Shown here piece after piece: positions 24,064-53,613 of a stretch of DNA of 64,000 nucleotides. How positions within the stretch are numbered: position 1 is the stretch's first letter; each line of letters opens with the position of its first letter. The notes below the pieces were generated by a model. It saw only the letters and a program-made list of their open reading frames with translations, made no database searches and was not told the origin of the DNA. This DNA is from Sphingomonadales bacterium (lineage in GTDB: Bacteria; Pseudomonadota; Alphaproteobacteria; Sphingomonadales; Govanellaceae). The DNA is taken from the NCBI GenBank assembly GCA_019455285.1, contig JACFMS010000003.1, positions 72,909 through 136,908 on the forward strand, written 5' to 3'. Made by a program: the position numbers and the translations under genes.

Positions 24064-25341
24064 TCAAACAGGGTGGGGATTTTTTGAGGCCTCTGCCGCC
24101 GCCAAATCGGCAGGCTTGGGGTAGGGCTTGAAAAACAAGAAGAAAATGGCGCTTATCAGTAGGGCCGCGATGATCGCCGGGGCAACCGGGGCATAGCTGC
24201 GGGTCAGATCATAGCTTAAGCCCACCACCGCCGGGCCGAGGGCGCTGCACAGAAAGAAGCTGGCGTTCAGCTGGCCGAAAATGGAGGCGAAATAGCGGGT
24301 GCCAAAATAGCGGCTGACCAGCACCGCCATGACGTCGATCTCCGCCCCAACCGCGAACCCAAGCAGCGCCGCGCCAACGTAGCTCATCGTCCCGAGAGGG
24401 GCGAGGAACAACAGCCCGATCCCCGTGGCAGTGGCGAGCGCGGCGATGGCGGCGATCAGCGGTCCCCAGACATAGTCCAGGAGATAGCCGGTCGCCAGAC
24501 GGCCGATCACCAGCGTCACGCCAATGCTGGCCTGCACGGCGGCGGCGGCTTCAGCCGACAGCCCGCGATCGGTCAGCAGCGGAATAAGGTGAGCGACACC
24601 GCCGGAATAGCCAATGGCGATGAAACCGAACCCCGCCACCATCATCCAGAAGGTAACCCCGCGCCGTGCCTGACGCGGGCTGATGCCGAAAACGGGCGCG
24701 GCCGCGGTTGCCGGCGTCTGCTGACGGTAGCCGCTGTCGTTGGTCAATCCCAGTTCCGACGGATGATCTTTGAGCAGCCAATAGACCACCGGCAACCCGA
24801 CGATAAGCGAGAGCATCGCCAACGCCACATACGCCTGACGCCAGCCGAGTTCGCTGACCACATGCTGCGCGAATACCGATGTTGCCGCCAAGCCGAGCCC
24901 GATGCCGGACAAGGATAACCCCAGCGCCAGCCCGCGTCGGCGCTCGAACCAGTTGCAGATGACTTTGGTATAGGCGATGGGAGAAGCGCCGCTGCCCAGC
25001 ACGGCGATCATGAAGTATGACGCATAAAGGTGCGCCAAGGCGCTGGTGAGAAAATATTGCGCCGCCAGCACCGCCATGCACAACGGATATGAAATCAGAA
25101 TAAGACGCCGCGCGCCGAAGCGATCGATCAATCGCCCGGCCAGCGGCGCCGAAAGAACGATGCCCGCCACATGAAAGGTCAGCGCCGCCGAAGCTTCCGT
25201 TCGGGACCAGCCAAACTCGGCGATCAGTGGTTTCATAAAAATGCCGAACGAGGCCATGACCAGCGGCATGGTGCCAAGCCCCAACCCCAGCACCGAGGCC
25301 AGTACGATCCACCAGCCATAAAATATCCGGCGCTGCGCCAT
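24064..25341 (-). CDS. MFS transporter (monocarboxylate/oxalate-formate antiporter type)
   Basis: This 425-residue major-facilitator protein has twelve predicted membrane segments. The first, WWIVLASVLGLGLGTMPLVMASFGIFMKPLIAEFGWSRT, is typical of the oxalate/formate and monocarboxylate transporter group. A loop 2-3 motif, GRLIDRFGARRLI, and its second-half counterpart GRLATGYLLDYVWGP are present. It starts 17 bp after the acyl-CoA ligase stop and ends the minus-strand catabolic operon 24064-31899. It probably imports, or exports by exchange, the acid activated by the ligases. The substrate is not identifiable. Confidence 0.88.
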   Translation of the reverse strand: MAQRRIFYGWWIVLASVLGLGLGTMPLVMASFGIFMKPLIAEFGWSRTEASAALTFHVAGIVLSAPLAGRLIDRFGARRLILISYPLCMAVLAAQYFLTSALAHLYASYFMIAVLGSGASPIAYTKVICNWFERRRGLALGLSLSGIGLGLAATSVFAQHVVSELGWRQAYVALAMLSLIVGLPVVYWLLKDHPSELGLTNDSGYRQQTPATAAAPVFGISPRQARRGVTFWMMVAGFGFIAIGYSGGVAHLIPLLTDRGLSAEAAAAVQASIGVTLVIGRLATGYLLDYVWGPLIAAIAALATATGIGLLFLAPLGTMSYVGAALLGFAVGAEIDVMAVLVSRYFGTRYFASIFGQLNASFFLCSALGPAVVGLSYDLTRSYAPVAPAIIAALLISAIFFLFFKPYPKPADLAAAEASKNPHPV

Positions 25342-25358: not shown

Positions 25359-26945
25359 CTATCGCGGGATCTCGATGCCGGCGGCCTCGCGATCCCAGGT
25401 GTTTTCATTCAGCGGGTTGACTCGCAGCTCCACTTTGCGCACGTGCTGGGTGGATGGCGTGCGCGGCAGCACATCGACGAATTCGATATAGCGGGGCACC
25501 ATGAAACGGGGCATGCGCGGAATGAGAAAACGAATGAGTTCCTCCGGCGTCAGCGTTGAGCCTGGCCGGCGGGTGGCGACGATCTTCACCTCGTCCTCGC
25601 CATGCTCGGAGGGCACGCCGATGGCGGCCACGCCGGTCAAATCGGGATGCTGGGAGACGATCGCTTCGACTTCGAACGAGGAAATATTTTCGCCCCGGCG
25701 GCGCATGTAATCGCGCTTGCGATCGACGAAATAATGATTGCCCTCGGCATCGCGGCGCATGGCGTCGCCGGTGTGCAGCCAGCCGTTGCGCCAAGCCTCC
25801 CAGGTTTTTTCCGGTTTGCCGAAATAGCCTTGGCTTAGCGTCCACGGCTGATTGGTGCGGACAATGAGCTCGCCCACCTCGCCCACCGGCACTTCATAAT
25901 CCAGATCATCGACGATCCGCACCTCATAGCCCGGCTTGACCTTGCCGCAACTGGTGAAATTGTCGGTGACATTATTGCGGCCCAAGGGTACGCCCGCCTC
26001 GGTCATGCCGAAATGGGTGTTGACGATGACATTGAAGCGCTTGCGGAAGGCGTCGATGTCGCTGATCATGGTGACATACTTCAAGCTGTGTTTTTTATCG
26101 TCGTCGGATGGCGGCAGCGCCAGCACCCATTTCGCCATGGCCGGCAACAGAATACTGATCGTGCACTTGTGGTTATCGACATCGCGCCAAAAATCCTGGG
26201 TCCTGAACTGTTCGCGAATGACCACCCGGCCGCCGAATGCGACCATCGCCAGGAACGGCACTTTGCCGGTGCCGTGAAACATGGGAAATGGTGCGTAAAA
26301 GGCGTCGTCCGGCCCAAGATAATTCAGGGTCTGAATGGAATTCATGTAATAGCCCCAGGGAATCATCACTCCCTTCGACGGGCCGGTGGTGCCGCCGGTA
26401 TATAAGATGCCCGCCAGGTTCCAGGGCTTGGGTGCCTCCACGTCCTCTATGCCAGTACTTGTCGTCAGCAAGCGATCGCCATCAATCAGCGTTGGCTTGA
26501 GCCTGGGCAATTCGGCGCGCGCCGACATGACGATCACGGATTCCAGATTGGGCAGACGATCAGCGACGTCCGTTAGACGGTCCAGGTACCGGTCGTCGAT
26601 CAGCAACACCTTGGCCCCGGAATCCGAGATGATGTAGTGCAGCATATCGCCAAGATAATTGGTGTTGATCGGCACCTCGATCGCTTTGAGCCAGGAAAGC
26701 CCTAGCCAGGACGCCGCGGTATTGATCGCCGGCGGCATGAAGATGGCCACCCGATCGCCTTCCGCCACGCCCAAACTGCGGTAGACTTGCGCCCATTTCT
26801 TGACCAGATGATGGAACTGTTGATAGGTGTATGATGCCCCATCGACCTCCTCGACAAAGCTGCGATCAGGCGTTGCCGCCGCACGCTGGGCGAGAATGAG
26901 CGGCAACGTGTCCTTGGGGCCGATCTCTATCTGCAAGCTCGTCAT
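25359..26945 (-). CDS. AMP-dependent acyl-CoA synthetase (CaiC-like)
   Basis: This 528-residue adenylating ligase is of the crotonobetaine/carnitine-CoA ligase-like group. Motifs are ILYTGGTTGPSKGVMIPWGYY, NTHFGMTEAGVPLG, GWLHTGDAMRRDAEGNHYFVDRKRDYMRRRGENISSFEVE. The C-terminal motif is RTPSTQHVRKVELR, so the position usually held by the catalytic adenylation Lys appears to be His, with one extra residue nearby. ATG 26945 (MTSLQIEIGPKD) has a GGAG site just upstream and matches family length; the longer start at 26978 overlaps the previous gene. It is one of two ligases in this operon. Confidence 0.9.
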   Translation of the reverse strand: MTSLQIEIGPKDTLPLILAQRAAATPDRSFVEEVDGASYTYQQFHHLVKKWAQVYRSLGVAEGDRVAIFMPPAINTAASWLGLSWLKAIEVPINTNYLGDMLHYIISDSGAKVLLIDDRYLDRLTDVADRLPNLESVIVMSARAELPRLKPTLIDGDRLLTTSTGIEDVEAPKPWNLAGILYTGGTTGPSKGVMIPWGYYMNSIQTLNYLGPDDAFYAPFPMFHGTGKVPFLAMVAFGGRVVIREQFRTQDFWRDVDNHKCTISILLPAMAKWVLALPPSDDDKKHSLKYVTMISDIDAFRKRFNVIVNTHFGMTEAGVPLGRNNVTDNFTSCGKVKPGYEVRIVDDLDYEVPVGEVGELIVRTNQPWTLSQGYFGKPEKTWEAWRNGWLHTGDAMRRDAEGNHYFVDRKRDYMRRRGENISSFEVEAIVSQHPDLTGVAAIGVPSEHGEDEVKIVATRRPGSTLTPEELIRFLIPRMPRFMVPRYIEFVDVLPRTPSTQHVRKVELRVNPLNENTWDREAAGIEIPR

Positions 26946-26971
26946 GACGAATCTCCTTCGATAAAGCGTAC

Positions 26972-27664
26972 CTAACACCGAGCCTCTTCATGGACGCGCG
27001 CCAGCGCACCGCAAGAAAAGGCTGGGCGTATGGTAAAAGCGGATATTTTCGATGCTTCGTACTGTTTCTTTTCCTGCGCGAACGCCTTGGTATGCGCAAA
27101 ATCCTGATGCCCCCAGAGCATCGCCTTGCTGGCGTAAACTTCCACCATCAGGTAGCGCTGCGGCGTATCCGTCCGGTACATGTCGGCATAGAGAAAACCA
27201 GGTTCCTTGGCTGACACCTTCTCGCCCACGCGGCCGATCGCTCCCAGAAATTGCTCCTCCTTGCCGGGCAATATGTAGGCGGCGGCAAAAGCGCCAAAAG
27301 GCGCATCACCAATATACCGGCTGCCGCCAAACATGGCGGAATCGAACGGCTCCGTCAGCGGCCGGCGGCGCATCGGCGGGTCGGAATAGACGGGATAGAT
27401 GAACTCACGGCGGCTCTCAGGCATGAGCGCGCCGAAGATGGCGCTTAATGGCTCATTCTCATGCGGCACGGCATCGCCCTTATACATTTCCACCAGCAGA
27501 AACTTGTTGGCGTGCTTGGTGAAATACAGATCGACATAAAGGCACATATCCGACGCCGCCGCCTGGGTGGCGTAAGCGCGAAGATTATCTATAAAGGCGT
27601 CCGCCTCTCCTTCCGGCGCAAAGAGCACCGATATCCGGCCCTTCATGTCATGCTCACTCGTCAT
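26972..27664 (-). CDS. Tandem ABM-like (dimeric alpha+beta barrel) domain protein
   Basis: This 230-residue protein has two related halves. Each has a strand-helix-strand pattern ending in an ABM-type motif: YVDLYFTKHANKFLLVEMYKGDAV in the first, YADMYRTDTPQRYLMVEVYASKAMLWGHQDFAHTKAF in the second. ABM/EthD-type domains form dimeric ferredoxin-like barrels found in small monooxygenases, isomerases and haem-degrading enzymes. Here the two halves could make one pseudo-dimer. It is coupled by ATGA to the DUF35 gene upstream. The reaction is unknown and the domain call is by eye. Confidence 0.62.
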   Translation of the reverse strand: MTSEHDMKGRISVLFAPEGEADAFIDNLRAYATQAAASDMCLYVDLYFTKHANKFLLVEMYKGDAVPHENEPLSAIFGALMPESRREFIYPVYSDPPMRRRPLTEPFDSAMFGGSRYIGDAPFGAFAAAYILPGKEEQFLGAIGRVGEKVSAKEPGFLYADMYRTDTPQRYLMVEVYASKAMLWGHQDFAHTKAFAQEKKQYEASKISAFTIRPAFSCGALARVHEEARC

Positions 27665-28050
27665 GCCGGCGCCGGTTGAAAACGCGGCAACGTGACGGTT
27701 GGCGTGACGCGATCAAAACTGACCGTCATGGCCATGCCGCAACGCAGTGTTTTATGATCGCCGGGCATCGCGGTGAGAATCTGCGGACCTTCGGCGCACC
27801 GGGTCAAGGTGATGGTATAGGGAACCTGCTCGGCGAGTTCGGGATTCAAGCCATAGTGCACCACGGTGAAGGACAGCAGCGCGCCCTTCCCGCTCGATTG
27901 CCGCCACGTCAAGGGGTTGCCGCAAGTGCAATGAGTGTGCCGGGGGTGACGCCAGGTCGCGCATGCCTCGCAATACCGCAGCATCAGCGCGCCCTGCGCG
28001 GCCGCCTGCCAATAGGGCTTGGTGTCCGTCGAAGGAGAGGGAATGATCAT
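27661..28050 (-). CDS. Zn-ribbon OB-fold protein (DUF35), partner of thiolase-fold enzyme
   Basis: This 129-residue protein has an N-terminal rubredoxin-like zinc ribbon, YCEACATWRHPRHTHCTCG (CxxC...CxC), followed by a DUF35 OB fold (GKGALLSFTVVHYG). DUF35 proteins are known as obligate partners of thiolase-fold enzymes, for example in the Ltp2-DUF35 aldolase of steroid side-chain degradation and in benzylsuccinate-pathway thiolases. ATG 28050 overlaps the stop of the thiolase-fold gene (ATGA), fitting a 1:1 complex. A TTG two codons earlier is possible. Confidence 0.88.
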   Translation of the reverse strand: MIIPSPSTDTKPYWQAAAQGALMLRYCEACATWRHPRHTHCTCGNPLTWRQSSGKGALLSFTVVHYGLNPELAEQVPYTITLTRCAEGPQILTAMPGDHKTLRCGMAMTVSFDRVTPTVTLPRFQPAPA

Positions 28051-29219
28051 GAACAAACCTCATGCGACAATAAGGCGACGGCCTGCGCGCCGCCGACGGA
28101 GAGCGCGCCAAACCGCGCATTCTTGACTTGATTGACTGCCTGACCCCGCAATTGTCGGACCAACTCGATAACCAGATTCATGCCTTGCAGGTAAACCTCC
28201 GCCAGCAGACCACCGCTGGTATTAATGGCGATACCCGGATCCGCGATGCGCTCCACCGCTTCGCCATGGCCGCAAAAGCCTAAGTTCTCCAGATCGTAGA
28301 GCACGGAAGAGGACGAGGCGTCGTAAATGCCTAAAACATTAATGTCGGCATGGCGAACCTTATGGCGGCAGAGCAGGCGATCCATCATGCCGATGCCGAT
28401 GCGCGGCGGCAGTTCGGTAAAATCGAAAAAGAAGTTGCTGTAATTGGGCGACAGGCACTGATCCGTGTCCCAAATATAAACCGGCCGGGTTTTGGCGCGC
28501 TGCGCATACTTCTTGCCCACCACCACAAAGGCGCACGCGCCGTCGGATTCCAGACAAAGATCAGCCTTGCGCAACGGCGTCGCCAACATGGGACTTTTCA
28601 GATAGCCGTCAAAATCCATCGGCTTGTCGCGCATCAGGGCATTGGGATTGCGCGTCGCATAGTCCCGCTGACGGGTGACAATCGTGCCCAGGGCGCGGAT
28701 CATTTTATCTTCCGAAATGCCGTGACGCTGCATGTAGGCCTGCGCCCATAAACCGAAAGCGCAGGACGGCGCCGCCATGCCGTAAGGTCCGGTGAATTCG
28801 CCGCCAAAGGGGCTCGCCCCTTCGGCCAGCACATTGCCTTCCTCATTGCGCGGCGGTATCGGCATGTGGCCCAAGCGCAGCATCGAGCGGCCGTTGAACG
28901 AACGATAGCAGACAATGGCTTCCGCCTGTCCCATCGCAATGGCCGAGGCGGCGGCCGCCAGCAAGGTGACCGCCGAGGACGCGCCGCTGGCGCTATCCAA
29001 GGCGAGACGCACCTCGGTGATGCCCAACGCTTCGGCAACGTTGCTTTGCGGCACGTTATCAAACGAGAAGCGCATCAGTCCGTCAATATCGGACGCCGCC
29101 AGCCCGGCGTCGGCGATGGCCAGGCGAATGGCATTGAGCGCCATGTCGATCTCGGTTTTCCCAGATGCCCAGGAATAGTCGCTTTCGCCCACGCCAATAA
29201 TGGCAGCCGCTTGGCTCAT
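28047..29219 (-). CDS. Thiolase-fold protein, Ltp2/SCP-x-like, without catalytic Cys
   Basis: This 390-residue thiolase-superfamily protein is of the SCP-x/lipid-transfer type. The usual nucleophile position reads LDSASGASSA, with Ser76 in place of Cys. The usual GHP histidine block near the C-terminus reads GGLLAEVYLQGMN. Thiolase-fold aldolases such as Ltp2 also lack the Cys, use Tyr residues and need a DUF35 partner, which is encoded next (ATGA overlap). A retro-aldol role on a CoA thioester is therefore more likely than thiolysis, by analogy only. The operon context supports degradation of an acyl-CoA with a branched or cyclic side chain. Confidence 0.85.
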   Translation of the reverse strand: MSQAAAIIGVGESDYSWASGKTEIDMALNAIRLAIADAGLAASDIDGLMRFSFDNVPQSNVAEALGITEVRLALDSASGASSAVTLLAAAASAIAMGQAEAIVCYRSFNGRSMLRLGHMPIPPRNEEGNVLAEGASPFGGEFTGPYGMAAPSCAFGLWAQAYMQRHGISEDKMIRALGTIVTRQRDYATRNPNALMRDKPMDFDGYLKSPMLATPLRKADLCLESDGACAFVVVGKKYAQRAKTRPVYIWDTDQCLSPNYSNFFFDFTELPPRIGIGMMDRLLCRHKVRHADINVLGIYDASSSSVLYDLENLGFCGHGEAVERIADPGIAINTSGGLLAEVYLQGMNLVIELVRQLRGQAVNQVKNARFGALSVGGAQAVALLSHEVCS

Positions 29220-29238: not shown

Positions 29239-30828
29239 TTATCGTTCAACGCGGATTCCCGCCGCCTTGACATCGAATGTCGAAGCGGAAAGGGGATAAT
29301 CCTTCAGTTTATGTTTCTCGATCTTGCCCAACGCCGTGCGCGGCAACTGCATTCCGGTATCGAAATATCTTGGCACCATGAAGTAGGCCAGATGCCGGGC
29401 GCAATGGCTGACCAACGCCGCATGATCGAGCGGCGGCGCGCCGGGCGACAGTTCGAGAAAGGCGCGAACTTCTTCCTCGCCGCCAGGCCCCTCCCGGTAT
29501 CCGACCACGGCAGCGCCGCTAACCCCGGGATAATTCTGGAGCACGGTTTCCACTTCATAGGTGGATATGTTCTCGCCGCGTCTTTTTAAGGATTCTTTCA
29601 CCCGGTCGGTGAAATGAAGATACCCCTGCTCGTCCCGCCAACCCAGATCGCCGGTCTTAAACCAGCCGTCCTTGAACGCGTTAGCGGTCGCTTCCGGCAT
29701 GTTGTAATAGCCCAGCATGCGGTCATAGACATGGTGCGTCTTGATCCACCACTCGCCGACTTTCCCCGCCGGCACGTCCCGCCCTTCCTCATCGACGACG
29801 CGCAGCTGATGTCGGGGGTTTAGTCGTCCGGCGGTGCAGATCCTGGCGGGCGCCGGCAATCCCACCATGGCTGATTCCGTCGCGCCATACCCAGCCACCA
29901 GCTTACAGCCGAATCGCTGCTCAAAGGCGTCAATCATCTCGGTGGTCACGCCAATGCACATGACGATTTTCAAGGCAATGTCACGGTCGTCAGGCCGCGG
30001 CGGCAATGCGAGCAGGCCGCGCAATAGAAACGGCAGGGCGCTCCAGTGCGTAGCCTTATATTGGTGCAATTCGTTTAGCAGATTCTCGCGCGGGAACTCG
30101 CGGCGCACCACGGTCTTTCCGCCGCTGATCAGACAACCAAGCGGTCCGAAGATGATGGCGTTTAAATGAAACAGCGGGTAGAACGTATAAAAAACCGAGT
30201 CTTCATCCAGAAAGACGCTATGGGCAATATCCCATGATGTCGAAGATAGCTGCTGATGCGGCAGCACGACGCCTTTTGAGACGCCGGTGGTGCCGGATGT
30301 GAACAACATCATCCAAGGGTCAGCGCGTTCCATGGCCAGCTTTGGCAATGGGTTCTGCTCCGCCATTAAGTCGGCGTAGCGTTCTTCCTTCGGCTGAGAA
30401 GGGATATAATTGCGCCCGACCACGATGGCTAGCTCCAACGCGTTGCCATCGCTCAGGGCTTCGTCGACGCGGCTTAAGAACTGGCTCCCGGCAATCACGT
30501 ATTTTGCCTTGGTGATGGCGAATACATGCGCCAGGCTTTGCCCTTTGAGCGCCGGATTGGTGGGTACCGCAAGTGCGCCGATATAGGCCAGAGCGAACAT
30601 GCTCACTAGTATTTCCGGCTCATTGCCCATCAGGATGATGACGGGGTCTCCCTTGCCGACGCCGCGCTTGGCCAGCGCCGCGGCTAAAGCCATGGATTGA
30701 TCATAAAGGCTAGCATAGGTAAATGTGACGTCATCAAACACCGCCAATACCCGCTCGCCCTCCCGGCGCGCCTTGTCGGCCAACAGCAGGGGCATTGGCA
30801 TGGGTCGCTCTAGTTCCGCTTCCATCAT
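29239..30828 (-). CDS. AMP-dependent acyl-CoA synthetase
   Basis: This 529-residue ligase has the complete motif set: MLFTSGTTGVSKGVVLPHQQL, YGATESAMVGLP, GWFKTGDLGWRDEQGYLHFTDRVKESLKRRGENISTYEVE and the C-terminal LPRTALGKIEKHKLKD, which retains the catalytic Lys. It resembles crotonobetaine-CoA ligase-like (CaiC) enzymes. It is the first enzyme gene of the minus-strand operon after the TetR-hotdog regulator gene, and the thiolase-fold gene follows 19 bp later. ATG at 30828 or the adjacent 30825 are both possible. The acid is unknown. Confidence 0.92.
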   Translation of the reverse strand: MMEAELERPMPMPLLLADKARREGERVLAVFDDVTFTYASLYDQSMALAAALAKRGVGKGDPVIILMGNEPEILVSMFALAYIGALAVPTNPALKGQSLAHVFAITKAKYVIAGSQFLSRVDEALSDGNALELAIVVGRNYIPSQPKEERYADLMAEQNPLPKLAMERADPWMMLFTSGTTGVSKGVVLPHQQLSSTSWDIAHSVFLDEDSVFYTFYPLFHLNAIIFGPLGCLISGGKTVVRREFPRENLLNELHQYKATHWSALPFLLRGLLALPPRPDDRDIALKIVMCIGVTTEMIDAFEQRFGCKLVAGYGATESAMVGLPAPARICTAGRLNPRHQLRVVDEEGRDVPAGKVGEWWIKTHHVYDRMLGYYNMPEATANAFKDGWFKTGDLGWRDEQGYLHFTDRVKESLKRRGENISTYEVETVLQNYPGVSGAAVVGYREGPGGEEEVRAFLELSPGAPPLDHAALVSHCARHLAYFMVPRYFDTGMQLPRTALGKIEKHKLKDYPLSASTFDVKAAGIRVER

Positions 30829-30906: not shown

Positions 30907-31899
30907 CTACTTGCCATAGATGGCGCGCGTCAGGCACAACGCTTCCTGGTGATTCTCCAGCGTCACCTTGACATCCCAAATCTCGATCTTGCGGGTAAAC
31001 AAGCTGCGCTCCGCCTGGCACAAAATGACGCCGCCGGCAATGGGCGGAAAAAAGCGCAACGATAAATCCTGCAGCACCCATTCGCCCTTGCGCGGCTGCG
31101 GCACCTCGCGGAAAAAACTCTCGCAAGTCCAGATGACCAGCCCGGCAATGGCGGCCGTCATCTGATGGGTGCCGTAGAGAATGGAATGCGTGGGCACATG
31201 GGCGCGGGTTTCCACCTTGTGCTCTCCCACCGAGCAGGTTTCAAAGCGCCATTCGCGGGCCACCTCCATGCTGTCGGCGCGCGAGACATAGTGTTTGACC
31301 ACTTTATCCTTGCTGCCCCCCGGCGGTACGGCGCTGGTCAAATAGTTCAAGATATGGCCGGTCAGCTCTTCCGCCGACAACGGACCAAAAGGACGATACC
31401 AATAAGGAATTTCGTTAAGCGCGCCCCAGATCAGGTGCTTGAGAATTTTCGGCGGTATTTCCCGGGTGATCTGCTGTTGTTGCTGCGCTTCCTCGATGGC
31501 CCGCGACATCACCTCGTCATGATGGTGCCACATTTCCTGCAGCGCCGGGCTGTGCGGCAGGCTGGCGTCATGCGCGCTGCGCATCGCCAAACGAAACGAA
31601 GACGGAAAATACCGCGTGGCATCCAACTGCAGACGAATGAAGCCTTCGATTCGTTTTGTCGGCGGGTCTTGCGGCCGAACGAAGGCGGCAAAATTGCCCT
31701 TGAAGAAGTCCAGCAGTCGCTGGTTGATGCCTTCCAGCAGGTCCGCCTTGCTTTTGGCGTGGGCGTAGAGCGTGGGGCGGGTGATTTTCAGCGCATCGGT
31801 GATGTCGGTGATGGAAGTGCCGTCGTAGCCTTTTTCGGCAAAAAGATCGGCGGCGACATCGAGAATCTTATCGCGTGATATGCGTCGCGGAGCGGCCAT
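30907..31899 (-). CDS. TetR regulator fused to a C-terminal hotdog-like domain
   Basis: This 330-residue protein is much longer than a normal TetR (about 190-220). Residues 8-60 are a clear TetR helix-turn-helix (ILDVAADLFAEKGYDGTSITDITDALKITRPTLYAHAKSK), followed by a helical ligand domain to about 190. Residues 200-330 look like a PaaI-type hotdog fold: PTHSILYGTHQMTAAIAG (central helix), GEWVLQDLSLRFFPPIAGG and RSLFTRKIEIWDVKVTLENHQEALCLTRAIYG. No acidic catalytic residue is obvious in the helix, so the domain may bind acyl-CoA as a sensor rather than hydrolyse it. It is divergent from a TonB receptor and heads the ligase operon. Confidence 0.8.
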   Translation of the reverse strand: MAAPRRISRDKILDVAADLFAEKGYDGTSITDITDALKITRPTLYAHAKSKADLLEGINQRLLDFFKGNFAAFVRPQDPPTKRIEGFIRLQLDATRYFPSSFRLAMRSAHDASLPHSPALQEMWHHHDEVMSRAIEEAQQQQQITREIPPKILKHLIWGALNEIPYWYRPFGPLSAEELTGHILNYLTSAVPPGGSKDKVVKHYVSRADSMEVAREWRFETCSVGEHKVETRAHVPTHSILYGTHQMTAAIAGLVIWTCESFFREVPQPRKGEWVLQDLSLRFFPPIAGGVILCQAERSLFTRKIEIWDVKVTLENHQEALCLTRAIYGK

Positions 31900-32204
31900 G
31901 CCTATCCAACCGTCATCTGAAAGAATTTGACATAACCGTCCGGAATCGCCCGACGCTTACCTAACATATTATTTTTTAATATTTTTTTCATCCGGTCAAG
32001 ATTCTCGGTTTGGCAATCATACTGATCGGTTAGTTATTGACACATATTTAACTAAACGGTAAGTTTTAGTCAATGGCCGCATGGCGCAAAATTTAAGGCC
32101 ACGGCAGCCCCGGTAGGTTCCATAGAGCAGACAAGAGCTTCCTCCGTCGATATGCCGAGGAAGCGCCAACAAAACGACCGATGAGCAATTTAGGGAGACC
32201 ATCT
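31900..32204 (+). promoter_or_regulatory. Divergent promoter region with candidate TetR operator
   Basis: This 305-bp AT-rich region lies between the TetR-hotdog gene and the TonB receptor. TTGACA at 32037-32042, with TAAGTT 17 bp further (32060-32065), is a plausible receptor promoter. An inverted repeat, TCGGTTAGTTA (32026-32036) and TAACTAAACGG (32049-32059), matches at 9 of 11 positions and brackets the -35. That is a natural repressor site for the neighbouring TetR protein. A GGGAG ribosome site precedes the ATG at 32205. Confidence 0.55.
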
Positions 32205-34448
32205 ATGTCCAACCATTCTCTTGCGATCGACAACCGCGCACTAGCAGCCGTCGCCGGCGCGTCCATGGCCTTGACCGCCAGCGTCGCCTTATTTCACGCC
32301 TACCCCGCCGTGGCGGCCGAGGAAGCTCGGCTGGGGATCGAGGAAATCATCGTCACCGCGCGCAAACGAGAAGAAAGTCTGCAAACCGTTCCCCTGGCGG
32401 TGACCGCGATCAGAGCGGAAGATCTGGAAGTCAGATCCGTCCGCAACATCGCCGATGTGCTGCGCCTGGCGCCCAACGTCACTTTCGCCTCGGGCGGCGC
32501 CGCCGGCGGCTCAGCGGCGCAGGTTTATATTCGCGGCGTCGGTCAAGGCGATTTCGCCATCACCAGCGACCCCGGCGTCGGTATATACGTGGACGGCGTC
32601 TATCTCGGCCGCTCCACCGGCAGCCTCCTTGATGTGCTCGATCTGGAGAGGGTCGAAGTTTTGCGCGGCCCGCAAGGCACGCTCTTTGGCCGCAACACCG
32701 TGGGCGGCGCGGTAAGCTTCACCTCGCAAAAACCAACCGGCGAACTTGGCGGCTATGTACAGGCGACGGTGGGTCGCTACAACCGCATCGATGGCCGCGC
32801 GTCGCTTGATTTTCCCATCATCGCCGATCGTTTGGCGGCAAAGGTCTCCGTGGCATCGCTCAATCGCGACGGTTATCAGCGCCGCTCCATCGACGACCTG
32901 GACCTGGGCGATCAGGACGCCTTGGTCGGGCGCGCGGTGTTCCTGCTGAACGCCTCGGAAAATATTGATTTTACCTTGACCGTGGACGGCACAAGACGGC
33001 GTGAAGAATCGGTACCGCAAAGCCTGGTAGGCATCGCCAATACGGCCCTTCTCGGTCTTTATAACGCCACCGTCGGCGCCTCTCTGGGCACGCCACTGAC
33101 CGCCGCCTATATCACCAATGACCGTTATCTGACCCACGCCACCGGCCCCAGCGTCAGCAATGTGGACAATTGGGGCGTCTCCGGCGTCATCGACGTTGAT
33201 CTCTCGCCGGTCAGAATTAAGTCGATCACCAGTTATCGCGATCTGGAGCTGCTGTTTGCCCGCGAAACCGATGGCTCGCCGCTGCCCTATCTGGAAGTCA
33301 TCAATGATGACGAGCAGACGCAGTTCAGCCAGGAACTGCAACTGACCACGCCGCTCTTTAACGACCGCGCCGATCTACTCGTGGGGCTCTATTACTTCCG
33401 CGAGCGGGCATCTGATAACAGCATTGCCTGGATCGCCTCGGGTCTGTCCGACTTCATTCCCATGGACCTGTCCCGGCTTGACAGCAACAACGTCAAAACC
33501 AACAGTTACGCGGCCTTCAGCGAGCTGAACGTCAATGTCATCGACAAACTGCGCTTCACCATCGGCGCCCGCTACACCCACGAGAAAAAAAGCTATGACG
33601 TCGTCGCGGTTCGTGCAAATTTGGGCACAACATTCGTCGGTCCGCTCAGTCTGTCTGACGACTGGTCATCCTTTACCCCAAAAGTCAGCCTGGATTTCCA
33701 GGCGACGGATTCGGTTATGCTGTATGCCTCCTTTTCCAAAGGCTTCCGCAGCGGTGGCTTTAATAGCCGCGCCAATTCCGACGCCGACGTCACCAGCTAT
33801 GATCCGGAAAAGCTCGACAACTTCGAGATCGGCTTGAAATCCGATCTCCTCGACCGTCGCCTGCGCTTCAACGCCACCGCCTTTTACAGCAACTACAAGG
33901 ATATGCAGGTCAACGTCATTCGTCCGGTGGGCTTGAGCTTCATCAATACCATTGATAATGCCGCCAAATCCCGCATCAAGGGCGTGGAGCTGGAAGCGGT
34001 GGCGGAACCGGCGGAAGGGCTGGTGTTCAACGGCGCGGTGGGCTACGCCGATGCGGAATACCGCAAACTTGATCCGGGCGTGACCTTTACCATCGACAGC
34101 AAGTTGATTGAAACGCCGAAATGGACCGCCAACGTTGGCATGCAATATGGATTTGCGGTGGGGAACCTCGGCCAGCTGACGCTGCGCGGCGACTACTTCT
34201 ACCGCAGCCGGGTTTATCACGACGTGTTTAACTCGGAACTTATTGCGCAACCGGGCTATAGCCTGATCAATGCCCGCGCCACCTTGCTGACGGCCAATGA
34301 CGCCGTGGAAATCGCGGTGTTCGGCACCAATCTTACCAACAAGACCTATAATCTCTTCGGCGTCAACGCGCTGACGAGCCTTGGCATCGCCTCGGTTCAA
34401 TATGCCCGGCCGCGGGAATGGGGGGTGGAAGCGAAATATCGCTTCTGA
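32205..34448 (+). CDS. TonB-dependent outer-membrane receptor
   Basis: This 747-residue receptor starts at ATG 32205 (GGGAG upstream; an earlier ATG at 32181 lacks a site). A signal peptide ends near residue 38 (HAYPAVAA), followed by the TonB-box-like GIEEIIVTARK and a plug with RVEVLRGPQGTLFGRNTVGGA. Barrel motifs YASFSKGFRSGGFN, NFEIGLKSDLLD and GTNLTNKTY are typical of sphingomonad-type receptors. It is divergent from the ligase/thiolase operon and shares a candidate operator with it. Its cargo is therefore probably the compound that operon degrades. A terminator follows directly. Confidence 0.93.
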   Translation: MSNHSLAIDNRALAAVAGASMALTASVALFHAYPAVAAEEARLGIEEIIVTARKREESLQTVPLAVTAIRAEDLEVRSVRNIADVLRLAPNVTFASGGAAGGSAAQVYIRGVGQGDFAITSDPGVGIYVDGVYLGRSTGSLLDVLDLERVEVLRGPQGTLFGRNTVGGAVSFTSQKPTGELGGYVQATVGRYNRIDGRASLDFPIIADRLAAKVSVASLNRDGYQRRSIDDLDLGDQDALVGRAVFLLNASENIDFTLTVDGTRRREESVPQSLVGIANTALLGLYNATVGASLGTPLTAAYITNDRYLTHATGPSVSNVDNWGVSGVIDVDLSPVRIKSITSYRDLELLFARETDGSPLPYLEVINDDEQTQFSQELQLTTPLFNDRADLLVGLYYFRERASDNSIAWIASGLSDFIPMDLSRLDSNNVKTNSYAAFSELNVNVIDKLRFTIGARYTHEKKSYDVVAVRANLGTTFVGPLSLSDDWSSFTPKVSLDFQATDSVMLYASFSKGFRSGGFNSRANSDADVTSYDPEKLDNFEIGLKSDLLDRRLRFNATAFYSNYKDMQVNVIRPVGLSFINTIDNAAKSRIKGVELEAVAEPAEGLVFNGAVGYADAEYRKLDPGVTFTIDSKLIETPKWTANVGMQYGFAVGNLGQLTLRGDYFYRSRVYHDVFNSELIAQPGYSLINARATLLTANDAVEIAVFGTNLTNKTYNLFGVNALTSLGIASVQYARPREWGVEAKYRF

Positions 34449-35829: not shown

Positions 35830-36181
35830 ATCTGAGCATCAATTCGAGCTGCAGGAAGAAAAGAACAAAGGCCATGTTCAACCCCCAGGTGACGATTGTC
35901 CATCTTGCAAGGGTACCCCAGAATGGACTGGAATTCGGCGCACACCGCCAGATCGCGACCAGAATCCCAATCGTATAGGCCGCCGAGATCAATATAAGGA
36001 CTTGATGAAAGATCACTTCTCCAGCATCTAGCGCCATTGTATCGAGTATGACAAGAGCCATGCTCATCGCAACGCCATATCCCCAGAAGACAACCGGCAG
36101 GGACATCTGTCCACGCCATGCGCGCAATTCAGGAGCGAAGAACAATGATAACAGAGAATTCCCAGACTCAGTTGGCGTCAT
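35816..36181 (-). CDS. Small membrane protein of unknown function
   Basis: This 121-residue protein has three or four hydrophobic segments: LPVVFWGYGVAMSMALVILD, VLILISAAYTIGILVAIW and WTIVTWGLNMAFVLFFLQLELMLRY. I do not recognise a named family. It overlaps the TDT-carrier frame by 14 bp and is coupled by an ATGA overlap to the short frame upstream, so it is probably an accessory to the carrier. Confidence 0.62.
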   Translation of the reverse strand: MTPTESGNSLLSLFFAPELRAWRGQMSLPVVFWGYGVAMSMALVILDTMALDAGEVIFHQVLILISAAYTIGILVAIWRCAPNSSPFWGTLARWTIVTWGLNMAFVLFFLQLELMLRYARG

Positions 36182-36462
36182 GGCCGCACCCTTTGGTTCA
36201 AGTATGAACCGTTGCGCAGCGGTTTGAAAGGAAATCTGTCCTCATCACCCGCTGGCCCACGGAGCAGCAAGGCGGACTGGCCGAGCAGCCGGGGGCGTCC
36301 CATGCTTCTTTGCTCTTCTGCAGTTTTGGCTCCCAAGAACAGCCGGACGGCAGTCTTCCATGTCTCCTCAATATTCAGGTAGCTATAGCGCTCAATGATA
36401 TTAGGGACCTGTTTGAGGATATCCTCAACCGATTTATCCGGGTAACTTCCGCCAAACGTCAC
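36178..36462 (-). CDS. Hypothetical short protein upstream of the carrier genes
   Basis: This 94-residue frame begins MTFGGSYPDKSVEDILKQVPN, has an amphipathic middle (IERYSYLNIEETWKTAVRLFLG) and a basic, less ordered end. Its TGA overlaps the ATG of the next gene (ATGA), the main argument that it is real. I recognise no family. The C-terminal third looks less protein-like and may be a decayed or truncated gene, close to the left end of the integrated element. Confidence 0.35.
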   Translation of the reverse strand: MTFGGSYPDKSVEDILKQVPNIIERYSYLNIEETWKTAVRLFLGAKTAEEQRSMGRPRLLGQSALLLRGPAGDEDRFPFKPLRNGSYLNQRVRP

Positions 36463-37049
36463 TATAGCTGTGGTTTCTGTCTTACGAGCACGATTGACAG
36501 CTTCGACGAGCGTCGCACAAATATCGGGATATTCAGAATGCCGGTGAACTGTTCTTCGCCGAAACGGGATGTCTTTATCGTCAGTTTAACGGGAATTCCA
36601 GCCAATCTCCTGGACCGGTTAATGGGGGATAGGTCAATCTATAACTGCAAATCCAATCGAAGTAGTCTCGATATCGAAACCACAGATACGCACCATAAAT
36701 TTATCCCCTTGGCCTAAGTCTAATTGTTATGTAATCGTGTAAATTGCAGTAAATCGATAGGTGGTCGCTTTTCGCAAGCAAAATAACCCTTCGTATGGAC
36801 ACGACATCCCAAGGTCAGCTGTCGGCTTTTTCTAAATCTCCTGTCATTTTGGCAGGGGATTTTAATTTTCGGTACCGACGCCATCGCGGGCTGGAGACTG
36901 GCCCGCAAATCAACCCTGCCAATGCCTACAAGACGTCTCCAGAGACTGCCTGTAACAACGCCCCACACCGCAAAACATACCGACAGTTCGCCGGCTTAAG
37001 GCCGAACGCGAAATTTCATTTAACTTATTGATATATATAAAAAAATTGG
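36463..37049. other. Gene-poor flank left of the integrated element
   Basis: About 590 bp of lower-GC sequence with no convincing gene. Several short open frames on both strands lack ribosome sites and recognisable products. It is the chromosomal side of the element's left junction and ends in an AT run just before the tRNA-derived repeat at 37050. Confidence 0.4.
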
Positions 37050-37063
37050 TGGCGGAGAGGAAG
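37050..37063 (+). repeat. attL: 14-bp copy of the tRNA-Ser 3' end
   Basis: TGGCGGAGAGGAAG is identical to 61114-61127 at the 3' end of tRNA-Ser(GCU). It marks the left junction of the element; flanking bases differ on both sides. Confidence 0.75.
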
Positions 37064-37143
37064 TCCCCCAAACCTTTGATTTTTCTGAATTTTTGTTATC
37101 CAAAAATATCATTATTTCATAGCGATATACAGATACAATTGAC

Positions 37144-37207
37144 TGGACATGTCCATCTACGTCCGGCAGAATCCAACCTTAAAATGTAGGTTGAAATGTA
37201 GGTTGGA
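37144..37207 (+). promoter_or_regulatory. Integrase upstream region: palindrome and tandem arm-type repeats
   Basis: A perfect 12-bp palindrome, TGGACATGTCCA, lies at 37144-37155. TGTAGGTT occurs at 37185-37192 and 37197-37204, 12 bp apart. TCCAACCT (37172-37179) is inverted relative to AGGTTGGA (37200-37207). The same tandem TGTAGGT motif recurs near the right end (61041-61060), so these are probable arm-type recombinase sites. The palindrome may be a regulator site for the integrase gene. Confidence 0.6.
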
Positions 37208-37224
37208 ATGAAGCGGACGATCCA

Positions 37225-38469
37225 ATGGCCAAGAAAACGGAACGGCTAACTGACCTTGCCGTAAAGCGCCTAAAGGACCCCGGCTACCATGCCGATGGCC
37301 GGGGGCTATATTTGCAGGTGGGACAGAATGGTTCCAAATCCTGGCTGCTAAGGTTTACCCGGGACGGGAAACAGCGGTGGATGGGATTGGGCGCCTATCC
37401 TGTGGTGTCCCTCTCCGAAGCCCGGCAACTGGCCAGGGACAAGCTTAGGCTGCTGAACGAGGGGATTGACCCTATCGAGCTTCGGAAGTCTGAAGTTACC
37501 GCCAGAAAGCTGGACGCCGCCAGAACCATCACCTTTAGAGGGTGCGCCACAGCTTATATTGCCGCCCATGAGCCAAGTTGGCATAACCAAAAACACGCCT
37601 CGCAGTGGACCAATACCCTCAAGACCTATGCCTTTCCAAAGGTTGGCGAACGCCCGGTACAGGACCTGGACACAGAAAGCATCCTCTCCATTCTGGAACC
37701 GATATGGCAAATTAAGACGGAAACAGCCTCCAGGATACGTCAGAGGATTGAGGTCATCCTGGATTGGGCCAAGGTCCGAGGCTATCGCACCGGAGAAAAC
37801 CCCGCCCGCTGGCGGGGGCACCTAGACAAGATCCTGCCAAAGCGAAGCCGCGTGCAAAAAGTTAAGCACCATGCTGCCTTCCCTTATGCGGACCTGCCGG
37901 TCTTTTTCCATAAGCTTCAAGCCCGCCAGGCCATCTCAGCCAGGGCGTTGATGTTCACCATATTGACAGTCGCCCGCACCAGCGAGGTGCGGCTGATGGC
38001 CTGGTCCGAAGTTGACTTTGATAAAGCTGTTTGGAACCGCCCAGCGGAGCATATGAAGGCCAAGCGCCCCCATCGGGTGCCCCTGACGGATTTAGCCATG
38101 AATATTCTGAAAGGTATGCGCCCCTTCCAAGAGATGGGCCACAAATACGTCTTTCCTGGCCTCAAGCCCGAAAAGCCTATGAGCGAGAACACAATGCTTA
38201 AATTCCTCCAAGAGGAGATGGGGCAGGACAATGTCACGGTGCACGGCTTCCGATCGACTTTTAGGGATTGGGCCGCGGAAATGACCAGCTACCCCAGGGA
38301 ACTAGCCGAATCCGCCCTGGCCCACATCATTGCCGACAAGACGGAGGCCGCCTATCTACGTGGCGATATGTTTGAGCGCCGCCGGGAGCTTATGGGTGCA
38401 TGGGAGGGCTACTGCCTGTCTCATGACGCCAAGGACAAAATAGTGCCAATGCGGCGGCCGCGGCGCTAG
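37225..38469 (+). CDS. P4-type tyrosine integrase
   Basis: This 414-residue site-specific recombinase has an N-terminal DUF4102 arm-binding domain (LTDLAVKRLKDPGYHADGRGLYLQV) and a central core-binding SAM-like domain (about 100-200). The C-terminal catalytic domain has Arg251 (VARTSEVRL), Lys280 (MKAKRPHRVPL), His340-x-x-Arg343 (HGFRSTFRDW), His367 (ALAHII) and nucleophile Tyr377 (AAYLRGD). All active-site residues are intact, so the element could still be mobile. P4-like integrases typically target tRNA 3' ends, in keeping with the tRNA-Ser repeats at the element ends. Confidence 0.96.
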   Translation: MAKKTERLTDLAVKRLKDPGYHADGRGLYLQVGQNGSKSWLLRFTRDGKQRWMGLGAYPVVSLSEARQLARDKLRLLNEGIDPIELRKSEVTARKLDAARTITFRGCATAYIAAHEPSWHNQKHASQWTNTLKTYAFPKVGERPVQDLDTESILSILEPIWQIKTETASRIRQRIEVILDWAKVRGYRTGENPARWRGHLDKILPKRSRVQKVKHHAAFPYADLPVFFHKLQARQAISARALMFTILTVARTSEVRLMAWSEVDFDKAVWNRPAEHMKAKRPHRVPLTDLAMNILKGMRPFQEMGHKYVFPGLKPEKPMSENTMLKFLQEEMGQDNVTVHGFRSTFRDWAAEMTSYPRELAESALAHIIADKTEAAYLRGDMFERRRELMGAWEGYCLSHDAKDKIVPMRRPRR

Positions 38470-39043: not shown

Positions 39044-40129
39044 TCAACGATTCAGGCCTCTCAGCGCCTGGTCGATCACATGTTGTGCCCGCTCCCATAC
39101 GGCGCGGCGCCAATCCGCATTATTGGGATAAAATGCCTCGCGCAATGCGGCGGTAATTTCCTTTCCCTCGTTGCTGGCGGGATCACCGTGCTGCCACAGC
39201 CAATGGTCGCGCATCATGCAATCCATCACATGCTGGAACGGATAGGTGCCGAACTCCAGCACGATAGGCGCCACGGCCTTGTCTTTCAACAGACGGCGGT
39301 AGCCTTCGGTGGGATGGCCGTGGGTGGTGTAATAGTCCCCCTTGCCAGCAAGCGCTTCGTCCACAGGCGCGTTGATCCAGCCGCCATACCAGCCCCTTGC
39401 CACCGCCAGCGCCTCCCCAGTGTCCATGGAAGCGGCCATGCCATAGCCATATGGCCCCACGCCGGAATGGAAGTCCACGATCCCCACCGTGCGTGCTGTC
39501 GCGGCATGCTCCGCCAACACAGTCAGCAGCGTTTGTGCAGACCATGTTGGCTTCTGCCCGCCATAGCCGAAACCATCCGGATGGCTGTACTGCCCCGTCA
39601 TGATGGCGCGCATTAAGGCGTTGGCGCCGTTTCGTTGCGCATAGGCTTGCAATGCCGTATTGGCCTCATCCCGCGCCGGGCCATCCAACGCCGGACAGTT
39701 GATGGCATCATGAATGGCTTCGTAACCGGGGTTTTCCGGCAGCGGCTGAGCATAGTCGATGAAATTGCGGCACAGGTCCACATTGTCTTCGTTGTTGCGC
39801 CGCCCGGCAGCCGCGCCCCAGCAGTTGGTGCCGTGGATCAGCAGCACCGACGTGTCTGGTGGCAAATCGCCTGGGCCCCCGTTCACCAACCAGCCGGCCT
39901 GGCAGCCAGAGCCCACCATGGCTTCCGCACCATGCGCCCCGGACATCAGCACCAATAGCTTTGAGGCGGAGATGGGACCAAAGCGCACCACTTCAGTGCC
40001 GATTTCCTGGCCATTGGGCGCACCCGTGGGATTGACAAAGGTTTGAGGCGTACCGCCAGCGTATAGGCACGCCGCCTTAAAACGTTCCCGCGCTGTGAAG
40101 AAATCCCTGGAAAAGTATCGGTCCCTCAT
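39044..40129 (-). CDS. DUF2817 family protein (M14 carboxypeptidase-like)
   Basis: This 361-residue protein matches DUF2817, related to M14 zinc carboxypeptidases and aspartoacylases. The likely zinc motif is LMSGAHGAEAMVGSGCQAGWL near residue 65; later segments are LLIHGTNCWGAAAGRRNNEDNVDLCRNF and VGIVDFHSGVGPYGYG with a further His, and PIVLEFGTYP with an acidic residue. It would hydrolyse an amide or ester bond at a carboxy-terminal group. It is the last gene of the minus-strand metabolic cassette, coupled to the transporter gene by ATGA. Confidence 0.85.
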   Translation of the reverse strand: MRDRYFSRDFFTARERFKAACLYAGGTPQTFVNPTGAPNGQEIGTEVVRFGPISASKLLVLMSGAHGAEAMVGSGCQAGWLVNGGPGDLPPDTSVLLIHGTNCWGAAAGRRNNEDNVDLCRNFIDYAQPLPENPGYEAIHDAINCPALDGPARDEANTALQAYAQRNGANALMRAIMTGQYSHPDGFGYGGQKPTWSAQTLLTVLAEHAATARTVGIVDFHSGVGPYGYGMAASMDTGEALAVARGWYGGWINAPVDEALAGKGDYYTTHGHPTEGYRRLLKDKAVAPIVLEFGTYPFQHVMDCMMRDHWLWQHGDPASNEGKEITAALREAFYPNNADWRRAVWERAQHVIDQALRGLNR

Positions 40130-41481
40130 ACTGAGTACTCCACTGGTTTTTTGCTGCGGGCCTGGATACGACGCTTAATGACAGAATGGCGGTGTTCGGT
40201 GATGGGATAACGCCACAACAATAAGGCGGCCATCACAAGCGGCACACCCGGCAGCACCAGGCCCACAAGGGTTAGGGTGATCGTTCCTTGTACCGTCTGA
40301 TTGGCCGGGTCAAATCCGAAGTACTCCAACAACGGCAATGCGATACCGACACTGAACGCCAGTGCGCATTTGGCGAAGAAATTATAAATGGCCATATAAA
40401 GCCCTACGTCATCGCCGCCGCCCTTCCATACCGCGTAATCGGCGGTATCCGCTATGAGTGCTGTCGGCAATATCCAGATGGGCGAAATGGTGACACCCAA
40501 CACGGCGAACACCGCCATGGCATACCACTGATTGCCGCTGGGCACGGCCATAAGAAGCGGCAACGACAACGCCACCAACACGGATGCCATGGCCAGGGCA
40601 CGATGTTTGCCGATACCATTGGCCAGCCGCACAATGCCCGGCGTTGCCAAGGTCCCCACCATGAACTGCACAAACACCAGGACAAGAAAACTTGATTTAG
40701 GCAGCCCCACAGCAAACTCAATGACCATCAGCACGGCGGCATTGTAGATATGAAGGCCTAGCCACAGCAGAAACGTCGCCGACACTACCAACAGATACGG
40801 TTTGTTCCGCCGCAGAATGGATATCGTTTCAACAAGCGAGGGCGCAACCGATGTAGATAACGTATGTCCCGAAGGCACCCTCCACAAAGCGGCACCCACG
40901 CTGACAGGTAAAACCACTACCGTTATCACCAGAAACACCATCAGAATGCTGCCGATGGAAGGCTCACTGCCGGAGAAAATCAAGATGGGCAGCCCCGTGG
41001 CCAGCAAAACGCCCACGAACGTCGCCGCCTCCCGAAGCCCGACAATGCGGTTGCGCTCCCGGTAATCGGGGCTCAACTCGGCGCCCCAGGACAGATAGGG
41101 AATTTGCACCAGCGTCCAAGCCGCATAGTACGCCACGATGGTGACGATTAAATACACCATGCCAACACCGGGGCCCGGCATGAACAGCGCCCAAGTGGCC
41201 GCCACCAATATCGGCGTACCCACGGCGATCCATGGCTTGCGACGGCCAAACCGGCCGTGGGTGCGGTCGCCCAGCGCCCCGATCACCGGATCCAGCAGGG
41301 CATCCCAGGCCCGCGCCACAAAAAAGGCGATACCCACAGCCGACAGGCTAAGTCCCACTTCCGTGGCATAAAATGGTGGGATATAGACCACCAGCGCCAT
41401 ATTGAGAGCAGACAACACAATGGCTGGGGCGGCATAGGCCAACAGCAAAGGGAGATCAAGGCGGCCGTTTTTCTGGCTCAT
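40126..41481 (-). CDS. MFS transporter, GPH (MelB-like) family
   Basis: This 451-residue, twelve-helix transporter resembles the glycoside-pentoside-hexuronide:cation symporters. The MelB-like motif RAWDALLDPVIGALGDRTHGRFGRRKPWIAVGTP appears near residue 55, including the conserved Asp and Arg/Lys cluster. It would carry substrate across the inner membrane after the TonB receptor of the same cassette has moved it across the outer one. It overlaps the DUF2817 gene (ATGA). The substrate need not be a sugar; GPH relatives carry varied compounds. Confidence 0.88.
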   Translation of the reverse strand: MSQKNGRLDLPLLLAYAAPAIVLSALNMALVVYIPPFYATEVGLSLSAVGIAFFVARAWDALLDPVIGALGDRTHGRFGRRKPWIAVGTPILVAATWALFMPGPGVGMVYLIVTIVAYYAAWTLVQIPYLSWGAELSPDYRERNRIVGLREAATFVGVLLATGLPILIFSGSEPSIGSILMVFLVITVVVLPVSVGAALWRVPSGHTLSTSVAPSLVETISILRRNKPYLLVVSATFLLWLGLHIYNAAVLMVIEFAVGLPKSSFLVLVFVQFMVGTLATPGIVRLANGIGKHRALAMASVLVALSLPLLMAVPSGNQWYAMAVFAVLGVTISPIWILPTALIADTADYAVWKGGGDDVGLYMAIYNFFAKCALAFSVGIALPLLEYFGFDPANQTVQGTITLTLVGLVLPGVPLVMAALLLWRYPITEHRHSVIKRRIQARSKKPVEYSV

Positions 41482-41539
41482 GATCTCCCCTATGACATGC
41501 GGTTTGATGTGTTACCTGGCGGGAACAGTCATCATATAC

Positions 41540-43843: not shown

Positions 43844-43974
43844 AACCTTCTCCTCCATCATTATTGCTGTGGTTTTCGTCATTTTGCTATCCTCTGCATA
43901 TCATCTTTGGGGCGGCGGAACTTATGGCCGAAGCACCCGTTGTTATGCCAAAGCCACAATCCGCGTGTTGCCTG

Positions 43975-45480
43975 TCACACCAAAAATTCTATAGCTTTCA
44001 GGGTTGTATATGATTTGAGACCCGCCATGCCGAATTCAACGCCAAACCCAGACTGCCCCATAGGCTCGGACGCCAAGGCAAAACCGCTGCCTTCGCCATG
44101 GGGGGCAGAGGCCTGCACCCGCACTTTGCCGGCGCGTACCCCGCGCCCCATCCGCACGCCCCGCGCCAAGCTCTGCGTCCATATGGTGGCCGCCAAACCG
44201 TACTGGGTGTCATTGGCATGGCGGAGCGCCTCGTCTTCGCCTTCAAATGTCTGGACAGTCAGTACCGGACCAAAAACTTCCTGTTGCAAAATGGCTGTGC
44301 CGGGCTGGACACCGGTCAACACGGTAGGCGTGATGAACAACCCACCGGTTTTCTGATGTGCGGCATGGCCGCCCGCCATCACCCGCGCACCATCCTGTTT
44401 CGCTGTTTCAATATGGCGCAGAATATTGTCAAAAAACGGCCGCCCTGCAATGGCGCCAAATCGCGTTGCCGGGTCCAGCGGGTCCGCCGGCTGCCAGTGT
44501 TGCAGGATATCGGCCGCTGCGGCAAAAAACTGGTCTTCCAATCCCTTTTCGATCAACAACCGGCACCGGGCGACGCACACTTGGCCCTGATTCCAAAACG
44601 CATCTTGTATCAGCGATTCAGCGATGGCATCCAAATCAACCCCATCGTTGAACACCACTTGCGGCGACTTACCACCACATTCCAGCAGCACGCGCTTGAA
44701 GCCATGGGCAGCGGAGTTTTCCATTATTTTCGCCCCCGTGGCCGTGGACCCCGTGAAGGTCACCATGTCGACATCGGCATGACGCGACAAGTCACGGCCC
44801 GCGCCATGCCCCAAGCCGGATAATACATTCAACACTCCGGCGGGCAGGCCTGCTTCTGCGGCAATGCCAGCTAAAGCCAGCGCCGAAAGGCTGGCAATTT
44901 CCGATGGCTTCAAGACCACTGAATTGCCGGCGGCCAATGCCGGTGCGATTTTCAGCGATGCATTAATGATGGGAAAGTTCCAAGGCACGATAGCGGCTAC
45001 CACACCTACCGGCTCCATAACGCTTATGCCCAGGGCGGTGTGGTCGCTGGGCGCCACGGCGCCATAAATCTTGTCCAACGCCTCGCCATAGTAGCGGAAG
45101 AAACTGGCCGCCACCGTCACTTCCTGCAAAGCACTGGTGATGGGCTTGCCCACTTCCAGACAGTCCATCAGCGCCAGATCAACCGCTGCCGCCTCCATCC
45201 GCTCGGCGATACCGATCAGCACCGCCTTGCGCGCCAGCGGCCCTTGGCCGACCCATGCCCGGTGATCAAAGGCATGCCGCGCAGCCAGCACCGCCTGATC
45301 CACATCCCTTTGTGAACACGATGGTAACCGCGCCACTACTTCGCCCGTGGCAGGGTTCACGCTGTCGAAGGTATCGCCTGCATCCGCTCTGCGGTACGCA
45401 CCATTAATGAATGGCCGGGGTTCATGCACAAGACCGGCGGCACGGGCATGCCACTGGGCCGCCGTCGTAGGCTGGTTCAT
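43975..45480 (-). CDS. NAD(P)-dependent aldehyde dehydrogenase
   Basis: This 501-residue aldehyde dehydrogenase has an intact active site: LLECGGKSPQVVF with the general-base Glu, and DAFWNQGQVCVARCRLLIEKG with the nucleophile Cys. PWNFPIINASLKIAPALAAGNSVVLKPSE and TGSTATGAKIMENSAA form the cofactor fold. It resembles PuuC/betaine-aldehyde-type enzymes. It lies between the TonB receptor and the GMC dehydrogenase on the same strand (35 bp after the latter). It probably oxidises the aldehyde that the GMC enzyme makes. Confidence 0.94.
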   Translation of the reverse strand: MNQPTTAAQWHARAAGLVHEPRPFINGAYRRADAGDTFDSVNPATGEVVARLPSCSQRDVDQAVLAARHAFDHRAWVGQGPLARKAVLIGIAERMEAAAVDLALMDCLEVGKPITSALQEVTVAASFFRYYGEALDKIYGAVAPSDHTALGISVMEPVGVVAAIVPWNFPIINASLKIAPALAAGNSVVLKPSEIASLSALALAGIAAEAGLPAGVLNVLSGLGHGAGRDLSRHADVDMVTFTGSTATGAKIMENSAAHGFKRVLLECGGKSPQVVFNDGVDLDAIAESLIQDAFWNQGQVCVARCRLLIEKGLEDQFFAAAADILQHWQPADPLDPATRFGAIAGRPFFDNILRHIETAKQDGARVMAGGHAAHQKTGGLFITPTVLTGVQPGTAILQQEVFGPVLTVQTFEGEDEALRHANDTQYGLAATIWTQSLARGVRMGRGVRAGKVRVQASAPHGEGSGFALASEPMGQSGFGVEFGMAGLKSYTTLKAIEFLV

Positions 45481-45515
45481 CGTTATTTGCTCCGTATGGT
45501 CGTAAATTTATTCTG

Positions 45516-47123: not shown

Positions 47124-47342
47124 GTTGTTGCTCCTTAATTTTTGAGACCATAAAGGGGACCTGGCGGCAAATCATATGGGAACGTCACATGAAAGTATGC
47201 TAAATGCCCAATTTAGACCCTGACAAGACATCACCATCCCGGGGGTGCTTGACGGCCAAGCCAAGGCCTGCCACTCTTGGCTGCAAAATGTATGGCTCCT
47301 TAAATCCGGAGCCCTCAGACGTTTTTAAAGGCTGGGAACCCT

Positions 47343-52766: not shown

Positions 52767-52767
52767 C

Positions 52768-52821
52768 CGCCCCCTCCACCATGCTGCGCATGGTCCCCCT
52801 CCCCCGCTTTGCGGGTGAGGA
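52768..52821 (-). repeat. Dispersed GC-rich repeat, copy A
   Basis: This copy lies directly before the DUF559 start codon. It is part of a longer direct repeat of about 90 bp (52762-52856) shared with 53608-53701. Read on the minus strand, the bases before it (52822-52886) encode DDEMMKVLSA-stop, resembling the end of the methyltransferase gene (GDEVMKVFSA-stop). Confidence 0.75.
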
Positions 52822-53612: not shown

Positions 53613-53613
53613 C

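Follow-up and report, generated by a model that had tools for sequence, protein, structure and literature searches.

The window analysed here, a 64,000-nucleotide stretch of a Sphingomonadales genome, contains a TetR-type regulator gene whose product continues well past the end of a complete TetR repressor, raising the question of what this additional part is and what it may contribute to regulation. The open reading frame (31899-30907, minus strand, ATG start) encodes 330 AA. A Pfam search assigned residues 12-56 to TetR_N (54.4 bits against a cut-off of 24; 1e-14) and residues 78-190 to TetR_C_24 (55.6 bits against a cut-off of 26.4; 7.8e-15), and both the helix-turn-helix (HTH) and the helical ligand-binding and dimerisation core of a TetR protein are present. 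No Pfam match was obtained for residues 191-330. Some 135-140 residues lie beyond the complete TetR, slightly more than the roughly 120 reported in an earlier note on this DNA, which had rightly recognised the extension. The protein is divided as follows:

31327..31899, minus strand: TetR DNA-binding domain and TetR_C_24 core (residues 1-191), from Pfam and from PDB relatives, including KstR2, up to residue 184
30907..31314, minus strand: C-terminal hotdog-like domain of the PaaI type (residues 196-330) and stop codon, from profile tests with controls, YciA and MenI as best PDB and NCBIfam matches, and purifying selection

The regulator gene heads an operon on the same strand, with a gap of 78 nt to the first ligase gene and short gaps or overlaps thereafter, and it faces a divergently transcribed receptor gene:

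29239..30828, minus strand: AMP-forming acyl-CoA ligase 1 (PF00501/PF13193; below the NCBIfam equivalog cut-offs)
28047..29219, minus strand: Ltp2-like thiolase/lipid-transfer protein (PF22691; PRK07855 at 9.8e-84, below its cut-off)
27661..28056, minus strand: ChsH2_C/DUF35-type OB-fold zinc-ribbon protein (PF01796, PF12172)
26972..27664, minus strand: ABM-domain protein of 230 aa (PF03992)
25359..26978, minus strand: AMP-forming acyl-CoA ligase 2 (PF00501/PF13193)
24064..25341, minus strand: MFS transporter (PF07690)
32181..34448, plus strand: divergent TonB-dependent receptor sharing the operator region (PF00593/PF07715; start as listed, a later in-frame ATG being possible)

The two AMP-forming ligases beside the regulator bear out the earlier reading of an acyl-CoA ligase operon. 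An ilvD gene, which lies 88 nt past the MFS transporter gene, may be separate from the operon. Pairs of a thiolase and a DUF35 protein, such as Ltp2/ChsH2, are the retro-aldolases of steroid side-chain breakdown, and by analogy with them it is a reasonable guess that the operon may serve a bulky acid degraded via CoA thioesters. The Pfam match of the ABM protein spans only residues 126-197, and a full-length relative was found in the congener described below only, among 120 relatives.

Further along the window, a tyrosine integrase with an Arm-DNA-bind_3 domain (37225-38469) is located between the region of the regulator and a GMC/TonB cluster, and the GC content drops to 51% at 36000-38000. 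The cluster at 39044-48362 encodes a GMC oxidoreductase, an aldehyde dehydrogenase, a TonB receptor, an MFS_2 permease and, divergently, an AraC regulator. It is much like the polyethylene-glycol (peg) operon of Sphingopyxis, with a DUF2817 protein in the expected place of an acyl-CoA ligase. A likely defence island follows (50242-60810), comprising a type III methyltransferase (53668-56583), a 1016-aa restriction-like protein (57760-60810), a UvrD helicase and weak matches of the NYN and TIR-like (ThsB) types; a tRNA-Ser gene adjoins it at 61114-61207.

The extension is genuine protein. A congener (G001, a MAG of Proteobacteria bacterium isolate PRO5; QEVO01000009.1, locus L021) encodes the same 330-aa protein with 98% identity (7 substitutions in 330 residues), and 26 of the 34 DNA sites that differ between the two within residues 196-330 fall on third codon positions, which together rule out a frameshift or read-through origin. 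For this one pair, dN is 0.019 and dS 0.398 across the extension, giving a dN/dS of 0.047 that indicates purifying selection and is matched by the TetR core (0.054). Residues 196-330 are therefore a working part of the regulator, and the two parts are equally constrained.

The divergent intergenic region between the regulator and receptor genes (31900-32180) contains two operator-like sites:

32021..32034, no strand assigned: operator-like palindrome O1, ACTGATCGGTTAGT, overlapping a sigma-70-like pair of -35/-10-like elements of the regulator gene; conserved in the congener
32051..32064, no strand assigned: operator-like palindrome O2, ACTAAACGGTAAGT, 30 bp from O1; conserved in the congener

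Each is an imperfect palindrome of the form ACTNANCGNTNAGT; the two are spaced by 30 bp or about three helical turns, and neither has changed at any position in the congener. No shuffle of the window gave as many near-matches to this form. The stricter form ACTNACCGNTNAGT occurs exactly twice in the 3.3-Mb genome, both times here, and not at all in a backward control; having been derived from O1 and O2 themselves, it demonstrates a single local target and says nothing of binding. An operator had previously been proposed at 32026-32059, which was roughly the right place, with the boundaries now redrawn to two putative sites. From the gene position and these sites, we infer that the regulator senses acyl-CoA and controls the operon.

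It may be asked which part of the protein would perceive such a ligand. Among solved structures, KstR2 is one of the best matches to the TetR core (PDB search, E 9e-13), and the regulator scores 30.4 bits against the 200-bit cut-off of the curated FadR equivalog, suggesting a related protein that is no equivalog. KstR2 and Bacillus FadR-type TetR repressors, which share the HTH and a related C-terminal core with the regulator, have CoA thioesters as effectors; they are about 190-200 aa long and, unlike the regulator, carry no further domain. Since the core resembles that of KstR2, a CoA-thioester sensor, the hotdog-like domain need not be the sole sensor, or indeed a sensor. Presumably, Arg162 and Trp166 of KstR2 are needed for its response to HIP-CoA, and the regulator has Lys154 and Trp158 at these places, of which Trp158 is missing from the other TetR relatives compared, these having Leu, Phe, Ile or Met. 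It is thus conceivable that CoA-thioester sensing resides in the core, as it does in KstR2 and Bacillus FadR, leaving the hotdog-like domain only a dimerisation or other structural role. We regard this alternative as rather unlikely, given that the extra domain is under the same constraint as the core, unlike a passive remnant, and that two matching residues may be due to chance.

The assignment of the extra domain to the hotdog fold rests on several sequence comparisons, every one of which, taken singly, falls short of the conventional significance cut-off. A single-sequence search of 177,635 PDB sequences returned three matches up to E 10, two of which are the hotdog thioesterase YciA HI0827 (E 0.3), and a two-sequence profile searched against the same set placed YciA HI0827 first with E 0.019. 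NCBIfam gave a single match, the hotdog protein MenI (E 0.11-0.14); it lies in register, as YciA does, aligning with the last strands, and reaches no curated cut-off. Profiles of the PaaI, YciA and YbgC types were then built from hotdog proteins of the same order. With the PaaI profile, HHalign aligned the two-sequence query co-linearly through the hotdog over 97-108 columns (probability 60-64%, pairwise E 6e-5 to 9e-5), a score matched by none of 1,400 shuffles and none of 168 real decoys, the best decoys spanning 28-39 columns. HMMER gave the extra domain 11-13 bits with this profile, above all of the ~3,750 non-hotdog ORFs in a set of 3,864. The YciA-type and YbgC-type profiles gave no match to the domain over their length; the PaaI type alone did. 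In several genomes of the order, two PaaI-type hotdog genes lie adjacent to each other (e.g. G046:C2:347783-348510 and G058:C2:903904-904622).

Structure prediction, which the earlier note had proposed as a check on its PaaI-like hotdog, contributed less. AlphaFold reached a pLDDT of 50 for the full regulator (2 sequences) and 40.5 for residues 196-330 alone (1 sequence), the coordinates of the latter being unusable, because alignment depth is lacking. The low-confidence model of the domain displays two strands, a 21-residue helix and three strands, which is the hotdog order, while Foldseek and VIA-align searches with it returned low-scoring matches only, with no hotdog among them; we take these structural results as uninformative and do not count them against the fold. 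The PaaI-like claim is supported in part, by the sequence-profile tests with their controls, and the structural route gave no confirmation. That residues 196-330 adopt another alpha+beta fold, or form a TetR-specific extension, might be argued from the marginal sequence scores and from the unrelated folds returned by structure comparison (MAJIN/TERB2 and ParE/RelE-like, low Z); we consider this improbable, as those matches stem from a pLDDT-40 model, the libraries that yielded any plausible match (PDB and NCBIfam) yielded a hotdog, and the controls fail to reproduce the match to the PaaI profile. Residues 196-330 thus very probably have a hotdog fold, of which the PaaI type is the best-supported on sequence grounds, supported though unproven.

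The catalytic residues of the family appear to be missing. In the PaaI register given by HHalign, a weak alignment, the HGG...D motif of the enzymes corresponds to YGT...I, Ile251 occupying the acid position, and in a FabZ-like register set by eye Thr248 takes the place of the glutamate. This fits the previous claim that no acidic catalytic residue is apparent, with the reservation that both registers come from weak alignments. Without the acid and with HGG replaced by YGT, hydrolysis has probably been lost, and, as in FapR, the domain probably binds a ligand without catalysing a reaction. That it is instead an active thioesterase, breaking down the inducer or editing the CoA products of the operon and so rendering the repressor self-resetting, is very unlikely. 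PaaI-type hotdogs are mostly thioesterases, and an alignment by eye puts His234 at the FabZ-type His position, but the position of the acid needed by PaaI, YciA and FabZ enzymes corresponds to Ile251 or Thr248, and YGT stands in place of HGG.

Combining the bioinformatic analyses, we infer repression, a CoA-thioester ligand and a coupling between them, and propose the following, which we hold to be about evenly poised between right and wrong: a TetR repressor with an acid-less PaaI-type hotdog would be released by a thioester from both operator-like sites. A regulator dimer would bind O1 and O2 between its own promoter and that of the TonB receptor, holding down the receptor and the operon that its gene heads. 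Substrate would be taken up via the TonB receptor and the MFS transporter and converted by an operon ligase into its CoA thioester, which may bind at the interface of the hotdog dimer alone or also at a second site in the TetR core; binding would then reset the DNA-binding heads and free the operators. A bolder version, which we think improbable, gives the single-chain repressor two pockets for CoA thioesters, one in the TetR core and the other in the dead hotdog. It would then read a pair of intermediates from one pathway, such as what the two ligases produce, before releasing DNA, and the FapR principle would have been invented a second time, independently, in another family of repressors.

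The architecture appears to be rare. A search for the same domain pairing, also suggested in the earlier note, located it in two related bacteria only, the source organism and its congener: no further member was found among 298 order-level, 385 class-level and 398 phylum-level genomes, or in plasmids and viral contigs, and none of the other ORFs in the fetched loci combined a TetR and a hotdog match. A scan of 84,980 species genomes gave no other copy. It used two degenerate peptide patterns, whose underlying alignment had been padded with two made-up conservative variants to widen them, and would miss relatives differing in both stretches, so that rarity is likely, though unproven. Several candidates were set aside. 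A class-level match of 59 residues (E 5e-4) lies inside a 698-aa frame resembling a cytochrome-biogenesis membrane protein and was rejected. Two plasmid matches align past residue 220, one being an annotated 699-nt TetR gene and the other belonging to an unannotated record, and the long-frame TetRs of relatives proved to be N-terminal frame extensions. In agreement with the earlier statement that a one-piece TetR sensor of CoA thioesters is not known to be described, no description of a TetR-hotdog fusion was found in openly accessible papers.

Compared with the PaaI-type thioesterases (TIGR00369), to whose profile it is co-linear over ~100 columns, the domain lacks the catalytic acid and HGG (in a weak alignment), is joined to a repressor and is too divergent for Pfam or NCBIfam calls. 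The closest known parallel is FapR, the malonyl-CoA-sensing repressor of Firmicutes, whose hotdog lost catalysis and became an effector domain (PMC516016, PMC2698920, PMC3536700); hotdog domains are mostly CoA binders (PMC3536700, PMC2698920), and FapR has been described as the only well-characterised family in which the fold has a non-enzymatic role (PMC3536700). Both proteins have an N-terminal HTH, followed at the C-terminus by a hotdog in FapR and a probable one here, with catalysis lost in FapR and probably here. However, FapR joins a DeoR-like HTH through one linker helix straight to its hotdog, whereas the regulator has a complete TetR HTH and TetR ligand core first, and FapR comes from another phylum and governs lipid synthesis rather than a catabolic operon. 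A TetR repressor enlarged past the usual two domains is known in Mce3R (PMC11667970), but there the extra part is a second TetR unit, in contrast to the hotdog-like domain of the regulator.

A TetR protein with a probably dead PaaI-type hotdog would therefore probably represent the FapR principle in another repressor family. If this is true, dead hotdogs became CoA-thioester sensors on more than one occasion, and the TetR-hotdog regulator would provide a biosensor scaffold of two domains that comes with operators of its own. The regulator also offers a handle on an uncharacterised catabolic operon.
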